Source of the DNA: Kitasatospora sp. NBC_01287
Lineage (GTDB): Bacteria; Actinomycetota; Actinomycetes; Streptomycetales; Streptomycetaceae
NCBI RefSeq assembly: GCF_026340565.1
Contig: NZ_JAPEPB010000001.1
Span: 310,001-374,000, forward strand
DNA: 64,000 nt
Direction: 5' to 3'
Of this stretch, positions 31,028-36,410 are shown piece after piece (position 1 is the stretch's first letter; each line of letters begins with the position of its first letter). Below the pieces are notes generated by a model, which had not been told where the DNA came from, made no database searches, and worked only from the letters and a program-made list of their open reading frames with translations. A program made the translations under genes and the position numbers.

Positions 31028-33163
31028 CTAGCGGGCGCGAGCGGCCACGGCCGACCCGCTCGGCACCGGGGCGTAGCCGGCGGGCCGGCCGGTGAAGGTG
31101 CCCCGGCCCTGGGTGCGGCCGCGCAGCCGGGTCGCGTACCCGAACAGCTCGGCCAGCGGCACCACGGCGGTGACCTGCGCCGTGCCGCCCCGCGAGGTCT
31201 GCCCGGTGATCCGGGCGCGCCGGGCGGCCAGGTCGCCGAGCACACCGCCCACCGCGTCCTCGGGCACGGTGACCGTGACCTCGGTCATCGGTTCGAGCAG
31301 CACCATCGCGCCCGCCCGCAGCGCCTCGCGCAGCGCCAGGCGGCCTGCCGTGCGGAACGCCTGCTCCGAGGAGTCCTTGACGTGGGTCGCCCCGTCGGTC
31401 AGGGTCACCCGCACCCCGGTCACCGGATGGCCGCCGAGCGGGCCGTCGAGCAGAGCGTCCCGGCAGCCCGCCGCCACGGCGCGCACGTACTCCTGCGGCA
31501 CCCGGCCGCCGATGACGGCAGAGCCGAAGACGAACTCCGCCGCCCCGCCCTCGCCGGGCACCAGCGGTGCCACGTCGAGCACCACCTGGGCGAACTGACC
31601 GGCGCCGCCGTCCTGTTTGACGTGCCGGTACACCAGGCCGGTGACCGGGCGGGTGGGTGTCTCCCGGTAGGCCACCTGCGGCCGCCCGACAGTCACCTCC
31701 AGCCCCTGCGCCCGGCGGATCTTCTCCACCGCGACCTCCAGGTGCAGCTCGCCCATCCCCGACAGCAGGGTCTGCCCGGTCTCGGCGTCGCCGCGCACCA
31801 CCAGCGAGGGGTCCTCCTCGGCCAGTCGGGCGAGCGCCGCCACCAGCCGCTCGGTGTCGGTGCTCCGGCGGGCCTCGACGGCCACCGAGACGACCGGGTC
31901 GGCCACTGTCGGCGGCTCCAGCAGCAGTGGTGCCGAGGGCGCGCAGAGAGTGGCGCCGGCCCGGGCGGCCTTGGGTCCGACCACCGCGACGATGTCGCCG
32001 GCCACCGCCCGCTCCACCTCGAAGTGGCGGTCGGCCTGCACCCGCAGGATCCGCGCGATCCGCTCGGTGCGCCCCGCTGCCACGTCCACCACCACCTCTC
32101 CCTTGCGCACCGTGCCGGAGTAGACCCGCAGGACGGTCAGCCGCCCGGTCGGGGCCGCCTGGACCTTGAAGACCAGCGCGGCGAACGGCGCCGCCGGGTC
32201 GGCCGGCCGCTCACACACCTCCGCCGCCATCGCCACCGCCACCGGCCCGCCCACCGACGTGCCGCGCACCGACGTGCCGCGCACCGGCGGGACGTCGAGC
32301 GGCGAGGGCAGGTAGTCCACCACGGCGTCGAGCAGCGGCTCGATCCCCCGGTTGCGGTACGCGGAGCCGCAGAGCACCACCACGCCCGCGCCGGTTCGGG
32401 TGACCTCGCGCAGCGCGGCGGCGAGGGTGTCCCCGGTGAGCGTCCCGGTGGCGCAGAACTCCTCCAGCGCCACCGGGTCCAGCTCGGAGACCGCCTCCAC
32501 CAGCAGCCGCCGGCGCAGCTCGGCCTCGGCCCGCAGCTCCTCGGGCACCGGGCCCTCGGTCAGCGTGCCCTGGCCGCCCGGCCAGCGCAGGGCGCGCGGC
32601 CGGACCAGGTCCACCACGCCGGTGAAGCCCTCCTCCTGACCGATCGGCAGCTGCACCACCAGCGGGACGGTGCCCAGCCGCTCGCGGATCGAGGCGACCG
32701 CCGTGTCGAGATCGGCGCCGGTGCGATCCAGCTTGTTGACGAAGGCGAGCCTCGGCACGCCGTGCCGGTCCGCCTGCCGCCAGACCGACTCGCTCTGCGG
32801 CTCGACCCCGGCGACGGCGTCGAAGACCGCGACCGCGCCGTCCAGCACCCGCAGCGAGCGCTCCACCTCGTCGGCGAAGTCGACGTGGCCGGGCGTGTCG
32901 ATGAGGTTGATCCGGTGGCCGGCCCAGTCGCAGCTGACCGCCGCGGCGAAGATGGTGATCCCGCGCTCGCGCTCCTGCGGGTCGAAGTCGGTGACGGTGG
33001 TGCCCTCGTGGACCTCGCCGCGCTTGTGGGTGCTGCCGGCCAGGAAGAGGATCCGCTCGGTGACCGTGGTCTTGCCGGCGTCGACGTGGGCGAGGATGCC
33101 CAGGTTGCGGACGGCGGCGAGCGGGTTGACGGACTGGCGGTCCTGTGAGGTGGTGGTGCGCAC
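31028..33163 (-). CDS. EF-G-like translation GTPase (second copy)
   Basis: A 711-residue EF-G family GTPase. G motifs: [26 protein letters not shown] and the G5 region [14 protein letters not shown]. Domains II-V follow, with [16 protein letters not shown] and the domain-IV tip [11 protein letters not shown]. The rapidly evolving differences from housekeeping EF-G ([10 protein letters not shown] repeat and altered domain IV) and the absence of rpsL, rpsG or tuf nearby mark it as a secondary EF-G, as found in many streptomycetes. AAGGG precedes the GTG. Whether it is a stress, antibiotic-protection or recycling factor is unknown. Confidence 0.92.
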
Positions 33164-33619
33164 GGCCCTTGGCCTTTCATGGTGTGCGGGAGCGGGGCTG
33201 CGCGATTCCCGGACGGTACGACCCTCGTGCGGGCCGGGCGTGGACCTCGGCCGGCCACTGCCCGGGCCGCGGTTCGGCGACGACGGGCGGGGCGGGCAGG
33301 GTCAGGCGTTCGTCTCGGGCATCCGGTACCGGCCGCGCGGCGGGCACCGGAGGATCGAGGACACCAGAATCACCTCGGAGAGCGAGGCGGGGGCGGCAAC
33401 GGCGATACGGTCACGCACGGCCAGGCCCCCCTTCTCGTCTCGGGCGCGCCGCCGATCGGTCGGGCGGCGCGTGTTCTGCGCACCACTGTAGGGATGCTGA
33501 CGCCGCGTCGGAAGCGATTTAGCGGCCGCGCGGACAGCCGCGGGCCCCTGCCGCGAACGGAGTGGCTGTGCGCCCGTCCGAGGAGGTGCCGGGGATCCGT
33601 GGCTCGGTCAGACCGCCGG
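33164..33619. other. Intergenic region, 456 bp, with a possible small ORF
   Basis: Upstream of the EF-G gene. It holds the promoter on the minus strand, the possible leader ORF at 33302-33418, and the 12-bp array at its right end. Nothing else is seen. Confidence 0.45.
33302..33418 (-). CDS. Possible 38-aa leader peptide upstream of the EF-G gene
   Basis: A minus-strand ORF begins VRDRIAVAAPASLSEVIL and ends RYRMPETNA. GTG at 33418 is preceded by AAGGGGGGCC at workable spacing. It lies 139 bp before the EF-G start and points the same way. No family is recognised; it could be a leader peptide or chance ORF. Only frame and ribosome-site evidence support it. Confidence 0.3.
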   Translation of the reverse strand: MRDRIAVAAPASLSEVILVSSILRCPPRGRYRMPETNA

Positions 33620-33654
33620 TCAGACCGCCGGTGCGGCCAGCGGTGCGGCCAACG
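33607..33654. repeat. 12-bp direct repeats at the end of the YczE-MurI gene
   Basis: TCAGACCGCCGG occurs twice (33607, 33619 region) and contains the minus-strand stop (33620-33622). A second 12-bp unit, GTGCGGCCA(G/A)CG, occurs twice at 33631-33654 and encodes PLAAPLAAP. Confidence 0.75.
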
Positions 33655-34630
33655 GGGAGCGGGTCGTGGCGTAGATGAGAATCTCGCGGGGCACCCGCGC
33701 CGCGGTGGCCAGCGCGCGGCCCACCGGGTAGGCGTGGGCGCCTGGTGGGAGGTTTCCGCGGCGACCGCTGACCATAACGTCGACGGAGCCCATGGCGCTG
33801 TGCGAGTTCCCGGTTCGGTCCAATCGCCGCAGTGTCTGGCGGGCGACCGCCTCCGCGCTGTCGTACAGGGTGGTTCCGGCGGGCAGGCTCCGCAGGATCT
33901 CCGGCGCCATCAGGGGGTAGTGCGTGCATCCCAGCACCACGGAATCGCAGTCCTCGGGGGTTCGCCCGGCCGCGTCGGCGGCGTCATCGAGCTCGGCGGC
34001 ACTCCTGTAGGCGAACCAGGGTATGAAGAACTGGGCTATCGGGCCGATCGCGAGCGAGTACATCACGGTGCCGACGCCCACACCCCCGCCGAGCAGCCAA
34101 CCCGCGGCGAGCACGGCGATCTCGATCAGGGTGCGGACGAGCCGGATGGAGCGCCCGGTCAGGGCGGAGGTGCCGGTCATCAACCCGTCCCGGGGGCCGG
34201 GTCCCAGGCGTGCGCCGACGTAGACCGCGACCGACAGGCCGTTGAGGACGATGCCTCCGGCGAGCAGACCGACGCGGGCCGGGAGGCCGAGGTGCTGGGG
34301 CAGGAGGAGGAGGCCGAGGTCGGAGGTGAACGCGAGGACGATGATGTTGGCGAAGGTGCCCAGCTTCGGCCTCTGCTTCAGGGGGATCCACAGCAGCAGC
34401 ACGAGGATGCCCACGGCAGCGCTGATCGTGCCGAAGCTGAGGGGGATGTGGTTCTCCAGGCCTTCGTTCAGGACGCTCCACGGGTTGACGCCCAGCGAGG
34501 CCCGGACCGTGACCGAGAGACTGAATCCGTACAGGGCGAGGCCGGTGAACAGCTGGGGGAGACGCCGCAGCGGACGCTCGCCGAGCGGGACGAAGGTGAT
34601 GGGCGGCATGGGTGGGCGTGTCTTGGCCAT
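33620..34630 (-). CDS. YczE-like membrane protein fused to C-terminal part of glutamate racemase
   Basis: A 336-residue chimera. Residues 1-210 are a YczE/YitT-type integral membrane protein with five or six helices (LFTGLALYGFSLSVTVRASLGVNPW, GARLGPGPRDGLMTGTS, IGPIAQFFIPWFAYR). Residues about 226-310 match the C-terminal end of MurI: CDSVVLGCTHYPLMAPEIL with the second catalytic Cys235, DSAEAVARQTLRRL and a SGRxGxLPP..AYPxGRAL tail. The N-terminal two-thirds of racemase, with its first catalytic Cys, is missing, so racemase activity is not expected. It is divergent from a MocR regulator, the usual partner of yczE. The single open frame shows no frameshift. Confidence 0.8.
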   Translation of the reverse strand: MAKTRPPMPPITFVPLGERPLRRLPQLFTGLALYGFSLSVTVRASLGVNPWSVLNEGLENHIPLSFGTISAAVGILVLLLWIPLKQRPKLGTFANIIVLAFTSDLGLLLLPQHLGLPARVGLLAGGIVLNGLSVAVYVGARLGPGPRDGLMTGTSALTGRSIRLVRTLIEIAVLAAGWLLGGGVGVGTVMYSLAIGPIAQFFIPWFAYRSAAELDDAADAAGRTPEDCDSVVLGCTHYPLMAPEILRSLPAGTTLYDSAEAVARQTLRRLDRTGNSHSAMGSVDVMVSGRRGNLPPGAHAYPVGRALATAARVPREILIYATTRSPLAAPLAAPAV

Positions 34631-34727
34631 CTGACTTTCCGTGGTCGGGTGTGCTGTCGGCGCCCGTCTCGCTGAAGCCGGCCGGCGCGCCGGAGGCCGA
34701 AGCTACGTGCCATCCGACCTGGCCGCC

Positions 34728-34753
34728 TGGTCCAATCATGAGAAAGTGGTCCA
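34728..34753. promoter_or_regulatory. MocR-type operator: direct repeat in the divergent promoter
   Basis: TGGTCCA at 34728-34734 and again at 34747-34753, a 19-bp period, ending one base before the MocR GTG start. MocR/GabR/PdxR regulators bind direct repeats near their own promoters. The site also faces the yczE chimera 98 bp away. Confidence 0.65.
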
Positions 34754-36121
34754 GTGCGAATCACGGAGAGCCAGCTGGCCGAGGCGCTGAGCGGATGGCG
34801 CACGCCTGGGATCCCGCTGATCGCGGCACTCGCCTCGGCAGTACGGGAAGGCGTCCTGGACGGCCGGCTGCGGACCGGCGGCGCGCTGCCCGCCGAGCGC
34901 CGCCTCGCTGCCGTCCTCGGCATCAGCCGCGGCACGGTGATCGCCGCGCTGACAGTTCTCCGGGACGAGGGCTGGGTGCACACACGGCAAGGAAGTGCGA
35001 GCACGTTGCGGCTCGCTCCCGTCGCGGCCGAGCGCCTGGCACCCCGATCCGCGACCGGGGAGATCGGGGTCATCGATCTGCGACGCGCCGTGCCCGCCGC
35101 GCCGCACGCCGCCTACCAGGCCGCGATGACGCGCGCGATCGGGCGCTCAGGCGTTCTCCTGGCACAGGAGGGGATCCCCGGGCCGGGACTGCCCGAACTA
35201 CGAGCCCTGATCGCCCAGCGCTACACCGAGGACGGACTCGCCACTCGGCCGGAGCAGGTCCTCGTCACCTCCGGAGCCCGCTCGGCCCTCGCCCTGCTGT
35301 GCGCGCATCTGCGACCGCGCGCGGCAGCGGTCGAGGTCCCCACCTACTTCGAGGCCCTCGGCCTGCTGCGCGGCGCCTCGACCCGGCTGAGCGGATTCAG
35401 GGTCACCTCGGAGGGCTGGGACACCGATCAGATCGCAGCCGCCTTCCACGCCGCGCGAGGCGGTCTGGCCTACCTGACACCGGACTTCCAGAACCCGACC
35501 GGCGCTCTCATGGAGAGCGCCACCCGGCGGACCGTCGCCGACCTGGCCGCGCGGCACCGTCTCACGCTCGTGGTCGACGAGACCGTGCGCGACCTCGACC
35601 TGCGCGAAGAGCCGGTCCCCGCGCCCCGGATCGAGGGCGCGCTGCTGATCGGCTCGACCAGCAAGACGGTGTGGGGCGGGCTGCGCGTGGGATGGATCCG
35701 CGGGCCCTCGGCCGTGATCGCCGAGCTTTGCCGCGACCCGCTGAGCGGCCCGCTGTCCGCGGCACCTGTCCAGCAACTCGTCGCCGTCGAACTACTCAGC
35801 GACGGCGATGAGTTGCTTCGACAGCGCCGGGCGGACCTTCGGCGCCGACGCGACCATCTCAGCGGCCTGCTGATGGGTGACAACCGGTGGCGGTTCACGA
35901 TCCCGGACGGAGGACTGGCACTGTGGCTGCGGCTGACCACTGATCGTGCGGACGAACTGGCGGCCCGAGCCCGAGCCGACGGACTCGAAATCACCCCCGG
36001 CTCCCGTTTCGCCGCCGACACCACGCTGACGCAGTACCTACGCCTGCCGTTCACCCCGCCGACCGCCGTCCTCGACCGCGTCGCCGACATCCTGGGCAGA
36101 GCCGCCCGGCAGTCAACTTGA
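34754..36121 (+). CDS. MocR-family transcriptional regulator (GntR HTH plus aminotransferase domain)
   Basis: A 455-residue regulator. The GntR winged helix (about 10-80) has IPLIAALASAVREGVLDGRL, LPAERRLAAVLGISRGTVIAAL and GWVHTRQGSAST. A fold-type I aminotransferase domain follows, with TSGARSALALL, YLTPDFQNPTGALM, VVDETVRDL and the PLP lysine in GSTSKTVWGGLRVGW (about 297). In family members PLP or an amine ligand alters DNA binding. The GTG start lies directly after the direct repeat with no ribosome site, which suggests a leaderless transcript. It is divergent from the yczE-murI chimera. Confidence 0.9.
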   Translation: MRITESQLAEALSGWRTPGIPLIAALASAVREGVLDGRLRTGGALPAERRLAAVLGISRGTVIAALTVLRDEGWVHTRQGSASTLRLAPVAAERLAPRSATGEIGVIDLRRAVPAAPHAAYQAAMTRAIGRSGVLLAQEGIPGPGLPELRALIAQRYTEDGLATRPEQVLVTSGARSALALLCAHLRPRAAAVEVPTYFEALGLLRGASTRLSGFRVTSEGWDTDQIAAAFHAARGGLAYLTPDFQNPTGALMESATRRTVADLAARHRLTLVVDETVRDLDLREEPVPAPRIEGALLIGSTSKTVWGGLRVGWIRGPSAVIAELCRDPLSGPLSAAPVQQLVAVELLSDGDELLRQRRADLRRRRDHLSGLLMGDNRWRFTIPDGGLALWLRLTTDRADELAARARADGLEITPGSRFAADTTLTQYLRLPFTPPTAVLDRVADILGRAARQST

Positions 36122-36151
36122 CCCGGCCCTGAGGGGCCGGGTCAAGTTGAC
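36112..36151. terminator. Perfect 18-bp hairpin over the MocR stop codon
   Basis: Arms GTCAACTTGACCCGGCCC (36112-36129) and its exact complement (36134-36151) with a 4-base TGAG loop. The stop codon of the MocR gene is inside the left arm. There is no U-tract, as usual in actinomycetes. Confidence 0.85.
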
Positions 36152-36269
36152 GCAGCGGTTTCACGCAGCGGTTCAGGCAGCGGTTCGCGGGACGGCCCCG
36201 CAGTCGCGGGGATCAGGGGTAGGAGACCACGTCGCTCGGACCGCCGAAGCTGGAACTCACCGAAGCTCC

Positions 36270-36410
36270 AGTACCGTTGGGGCCCGCGGCTGCCTGGAGG
36301 CCTACGTCGGCACCGAGGCGGTGCTCGGGGAGACCACCGAGTACCTCGGCGCGGCCATCGCCGACCTGATCAACCTCTTCAACCCCGAGCGGATCATCCT
36401 GGGCGGCTGA
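36270..36410 (+). pseudogene. Remnant of a ROK-family sugar kinase/repressor
   Basis: About 45 residues are recognisable: ARGCLEAYVGTEAVL, the ROK zinc/signature Cys-Leu-Glu-Ala box, then directly GETTEYLGAAIADLINLFNPERIILGG, the ROK box that normally lies about 60 residues further on. The N-terminal domain, the segment between the boxes and the C-terminal helix are missing. The upstream open frame (from 36147) shows no ROK similarity and no start signal. So it is an internally deleted fragment; its stop lies in a 14-bp repeat. Confidence 0.75.

Follow-up and report, generated by a model that had tools for sequence, protein, structure and literature searches.

The window, as we call the whole 64,000 nucleotide stretch of DNA that was analysed, contains a minus-strand gene in which YczE, a membrane protein, is fused to a C-terminal fragment of glutamate racemase (Table 1). 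The fusion is 336 aa long, its frame runs from an ATG at 34630 to a TGA at 33620–33622 with no internal stop, and there is a plausible ribosome-binding site (GGAAAG) 5 bases 5′ of the ATG. The first part belongs to the YczE membrane protein family, as the NCBIfam model membrane_YczE (NF052291) matches fusion residues 22–205 over its full length (model 2–185 of 185) with 234.5 bits, above the curated cut-off of 205 bits; the YczE core is intact. The glutamate racemase model PRK00865 matches fusion residues 224–275 only (model 170–221 of 260; 42.1 bits, E = 6e-11). These matches confirm what had been read from the sequence alone, namely that one open frame joins a complete YczE to a MurI fragment that keeps the cysteine of CTHYPL.

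Table 1. Features of the fusion locus; positions are those of the window.
Feature	Position	Strand	Basis
Fusion ORF, YczE plus racemase C-terminal fragment	33620..34630	-	ATG-to-TGA single open frame
YczE part, residues 1-211, complete	33998..34630	-	NF052291 match and identity to stand-alone YczE
Racemase-derived tail, residues 217-336 plus stop	33620..33982	-	70-79% aa identity to stand-alone 274-aa racemases
Junction	33980..33990	-	Window compared by blastn with YczE loci L043-L049 and racemase loci L033-L037
Racemase 3′ flank retained past the stop	33548..33619	-	80% nt similarity to G053 reaching 33548
Divergent promoter region	34631..34753	.	Alignment with four genus loci
MocR/YczR regulator, 455 aa	34754..36121	+	Pfam GntR E 2e-12, Aminotran_1_2 E 3e-23
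Truncated ROK-family fragment	36261..36410	+	Pfam ROK 24.6 bits, profile 211-242 of 294

The fusion does not reach the curated racemase cut-offs (42.1 against 408 bits for PRK00865 and 34.9 against 146.65 bits for TIGR00067) and its match to the Pfam racemase model is sub-threshold. The tail aligns with residues 160–274 of a 274 aa accessory actinobacterial paralogue. It is a C-terminal fragment, as had been proposed, but not a third of the enzyme, since these residues make up approximately 42% of it. Glutamate racemase employs two cysteines in its mechanism. Like the MurI/RacE enzymes (PF01177, TIGR00067) the tail has the CTHYPL motif with the second catalytic cysteine (Cys177), but in contrast with them it has neither the CNTAT motif with the first (Cys70) nor the N-terminal 159 residues, so that the fusion has only the second cysteine of the pair and, of the two-lobed fold of a glutamate racemase, only residues 160–274. 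Because it begins midway through the enzyme, without Cys70 and the first 159 residues, the tail is predicted to be non-catalytic and, as judged from its sequence, cannot racemise by itself.

Divergent from the fusion there is a MocR gene, whose product has a wHTH (GntR) domain and a class I aminotransferase fold, as found in YczR–YczE pairs. The sequence VVDET in its translation contains Val-Asp-Glu-Thr, given as the YczR regulator motif by Milano et al. 2016 (PMC4944035). In the promoter region there are two repeats, TGGTCCA (34728–34734) and TGGTCCAGT (34747–34755, extending into the MocR start), which are conserved in the genus relatives. The TGGTCCA-type repeats resemble the published YczR operator motif (PMC4944035) without being identical to it and form a putative operator. 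The locus thus has in common with the published MocR(YczR)–YczE divergent pair (PMC4944035) a MocR with Val-Asp-Glu-Thr, a divergent YczE and a 123 bp spacer with similar, TGGTCCA-type repeats; the difference is that the YczE of the fusion has a racemase-derived tail of 120 residues and not a hydrophilic end of ~10–30 residues. The regulator is ordinary for YczE. A link between the ligand of MocR and the racemase-derived tail had been thought intriguing, but it gains no special support, because MocR accompanies YczE with or without a tail.

The YczE of the fusion is closest (81%) to that of a genome from another genus, and the MocR of that genome is only 39% identical to the one in the window. 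The MocR of the fusion locus is closest (63%) to those of the genus relatives, and their YczE proteins are ~71% identical. Trees of both proteins were built with FastTree. They show no well-supported conflict and a separate origin of YczE and MocR was rejected on this ground; reshuffling of the pair (window 34004–36121) is left unsettled by the trees.

Both parent genes are found as stand-alone genes in relatives. The YczE proteins of genus and family relatives are 70–82% identical (aa) to fusion residues 1–211 and end in a short hydrophilic tail. The accessory racemase is a stand-alone gene in five members of the genus and, partly in more diverged form, in ten further genomes of the 395 family genomes sampled; in the closest genomes, its residues 160–274 are 70–79% identical to the tail. 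Its best relative is a solved glutamate racemase (2jfn, E = 7e-34) and it carries both CNTAT at Cys70 and CTHYPL at Cys177, so it looks like a whole racemase. The genome that carries the fusion has a second YczE, 53% identical, at C1:2623283, and its remaining full-length racemase is only 43–45% identical to the tail. A search of this genome found no intact copy of the accessory racemase paralogue elsewhere. By these identities, the source of the tail is the accessory paralogue and not the remaining racemase.

Two further observations concern the racemases. The only full-length racemase of the fusion genome (L055, G000:C1:8251591–8252160) reaches 108 bits with TIGR00067, below the cut-off of 146.65, and no protein of this genome passes that canonical MurI model. 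The accessory racemases of G053 (L033 7232–8056) and G039 (L034 7158–7982) differ with a dS of 0.11 in the N-terminal part and 0.35 in the C-terminal part. This unevenness suggests that recombination has occurred within the accessory racemase gene.

The change from one parent to the other is abrupt. The window resembles YczE DNA (84% with G303) from 34607 to 33988 and racemase DNA (80–86%) from 33980 downwards, so that the switch occurs within ~10 bp and at most ~10 bases come from neither parent. Within the window, blastn found no trace above background of the racemase 5′ part, which encodes the N-terminal 159 residues. At window 33600–33660 there are also two 12 bp tandem duplications that the compared racemase relatives do not have: one lies within the final codons of the fusion (LAAPLAAP) and the other spans the stop codon (GGCGGTCTGACC twice).

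Whole-protein searches covered the genus (70 genomes), the family (395 genomes), the genus to which the closest YczE belongs (393 genomes) and a further genus (35 genomes), which with overlaps makes approximately 700 genomes. Among these ~700 genomes of the family the whole protein is matched only in the genome of the window, and no homologue retains the tail, an outcome that had been named beforehand as refuting the proposal; looking for the same fusion elsewhere had been proposed from the sequence. A conserved fusion protein family was rejected on this result. Nor were the parents found side by side in any relative. No YczE was found near the racemase in racemase loci taken with ~7 kb on either side (that of G170 lies on a 3 kb contig), no racemase was found in the YczE loci of relatives, and in G143, which has both parents, they are 484 kb apart. 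A deletion between formerly adjacent genes is therefore not supported, as no relative examined has that adjacency. The sequence-only reading had offered such a deletion between neighbours as one explanation of the fusion. Of this, a truncating rearrangement agrees with the abrupt switch of parent, with the intact parent genes of other genomes and with the lack of the racemase 5′ part, but no relative shows the parents as neighbours.

The genome, 9.49 Mb in four contigs, carries the locus on contig 1, 344 kb from where that contig starts, and in relatives with long contigs both parents are mostly close to contig ends. Gene content and the size of the neighbouring genus suggest that this genome is of the same family as Streptomyces. 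Streptomyces chromosome arms recombine heavily, with deletions, insertions and end-joining repair (PMC8627663). The fusion locus shares with the rearranged genes of these arms (PMC8627663) a subterminal position, gene fragments and high turnover; it differs in that the join happens to be in frame. Directly downstream of the fusion, in this chromosome-end region, there is a complete EF-G-like protein of 711 aa (31028–33163, minus strand).

On the other side of the MocR gene there is a second gene remnant. The ROK fragment matches only 32–39 of the 294 profile positions and this remnant-sized match stands alone at the site, with GCLEAYVG joined to ETTEYLGAAIADLINLFNPERIILGG. There is a strong hairpin (~36115–36150) between MocR and the fragment, which lies directly 3′ of the MocR terminator and faces the MocR–YczE pair. 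Both remnants, racemase and ROK, are missing the 5′ part on the side that faces this pair. The ROK remnant supports local rearrangement as a second sign of it. Insertion of the MocR–YczE pair between a racemase and a ROK gene would give both remnants. This stays a suggestion, because no relative was found with ROK beside the racemase, save for one weak match in G006 (E = 2e-4), ~6 kb away from the racemase gene.

The tail shows no visible decay. Its frame is kept, and at the 70 positions where the other racemases do not vary it has five changes, each of them conservative. A branch-specific codon model gave an omega of 0.27 (95% ~0.12–0.62) for the tail branch compared with 0.25 in intact enzymes, a sign of purifying selection and a value whose reading is limited by the fact that this branch includes time before the fusion as an intact racemase. 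An omega of 1 for the whole tail branch is rejected (2dL 9.1). For the head (YczE) branch, omega is 0.10 (95% ~0.05–0.20). At the upper bound of ~0.6, up to approximately half of the tail branch could be neutral time after the fusion, and the selection data agree with a fusion of fairly recent date whose tail is a passenger.

Structure prediction of the tail, a check proposed with the sequence-only reading, gave low confidence. AlphaFold2 returned a mean pLDDT of 63.9 and a pTM of 0.43 for the tail alone, and a pLDDT of 57 for the whole fusion from only 19 sequences, a confidence so low that no topology is claimed. In Foldseek, racemases rank first for the tail, but with E > 0.02. By these models, the tail is not confidently predicted to fold alone.

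We consider it probable that a one-off illegitimate recombination in the chromosome arm has given a YczE that is under YczR control and carries a passenger tail. In a single event, presumably of the end-joining type, the end of yczE would have been joined to the middle of the accessory glutamate racemase gene. The last ~10 hydrophilic codons of YczE would thereby have been swapped for 115–120 in-frame racemase codons and the racemase stop codon reused. The fusion would still be transcribed from the divergent promoter under the control of YczR. If the protein is made, its YczE membrane core is probably normal and working, and its tail soluble, non-catalytic and at most partly folded. Two things count against this account. 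The intermediate, with the parents side by side, is unseen in relatives, and the tail, with its frame, its conservative changes and an omega like that of intact enzymes, is less decayed than a long-lived pure passenger should be. Either the join is recent, therefore, or the tail is functional.

The latter alternative, that the tail has been domesticated and serves YczE in the cytoplasm for docking, for stability or for responding to a ligand, is in our view unlikely. The state of the tail and the rejection of neutrality over its whole branch speak for it, as does the architecture of the YitT relatives of YczE, DUF161 membrane proteins that carry a soluble DUF2179 domain at the C-terminus (PMC4944035). 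The fusion resembles the YitT family (DUF161 plus DUF2179) loosely, in that a membrane protein of the DUF161 type is extended at its C-terminus by a soluble part; in contrast with that family, this extension derives from a racemase, has no relation to DUF2179 and is found in one genome only. Its occurrence in a single genome among ~700 also argues against domestication, as do the fact that the fragment is only part of the racemase fold, the low AlphaFold2 confidence both alone and in the fusion, and the neutral time after fusion that the upper bound of omega would allow. The earlier proposal that the tail is retained as a sensing or docking domain thus receives no positive support, although the tail is undecayed. 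That a broken racemase has become a tail for regulation or docking, giving a membrane protein under MocR control a new cytoplasmic module, is doubtful indeed.

It is also rather unlikely that the fused gene as a whole is being lost, as an incipient pseudogene in which the tail destabilises YczE and the second YczE of the genome covers for it. The existence of that second copy and the local gene loss seen in the truncated ROK gene would agree with this, but the low omega of the head, the lack of any disabling change and the intact ribosome-binding site, start and putative operator repeats do not. An error of sequencing or assembly by which two real genes were joined, the case that had been named as refuting the fusion, is most improbable: although a single assembly stands behind the fusion, the junction is internal to the contigs of the genome, a frameshift between two whole genes is ruled out by the absence of the racemase 5′ part from the window and an assembly chimera by the absence of an intact donor paralogue from the genome, so there is nothing to join.

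Taken together, the fusion looks like an ordinary accident of a chromosome arm rather than a new two-part protein. On the evidence so far, it would be a mistake to annotate the tail as a racemase or the open reading frame as a two-domain sensor. Read as a rearrangement with a passenger tail, the locus is a clean snapshot of chromosome-arm recombination yielding in-frame chimeric genes. If the tail were shown to matter, the fusion would be a rare case in which a broken enzyme provided, in a single step, a soluble module for a membrane protein.
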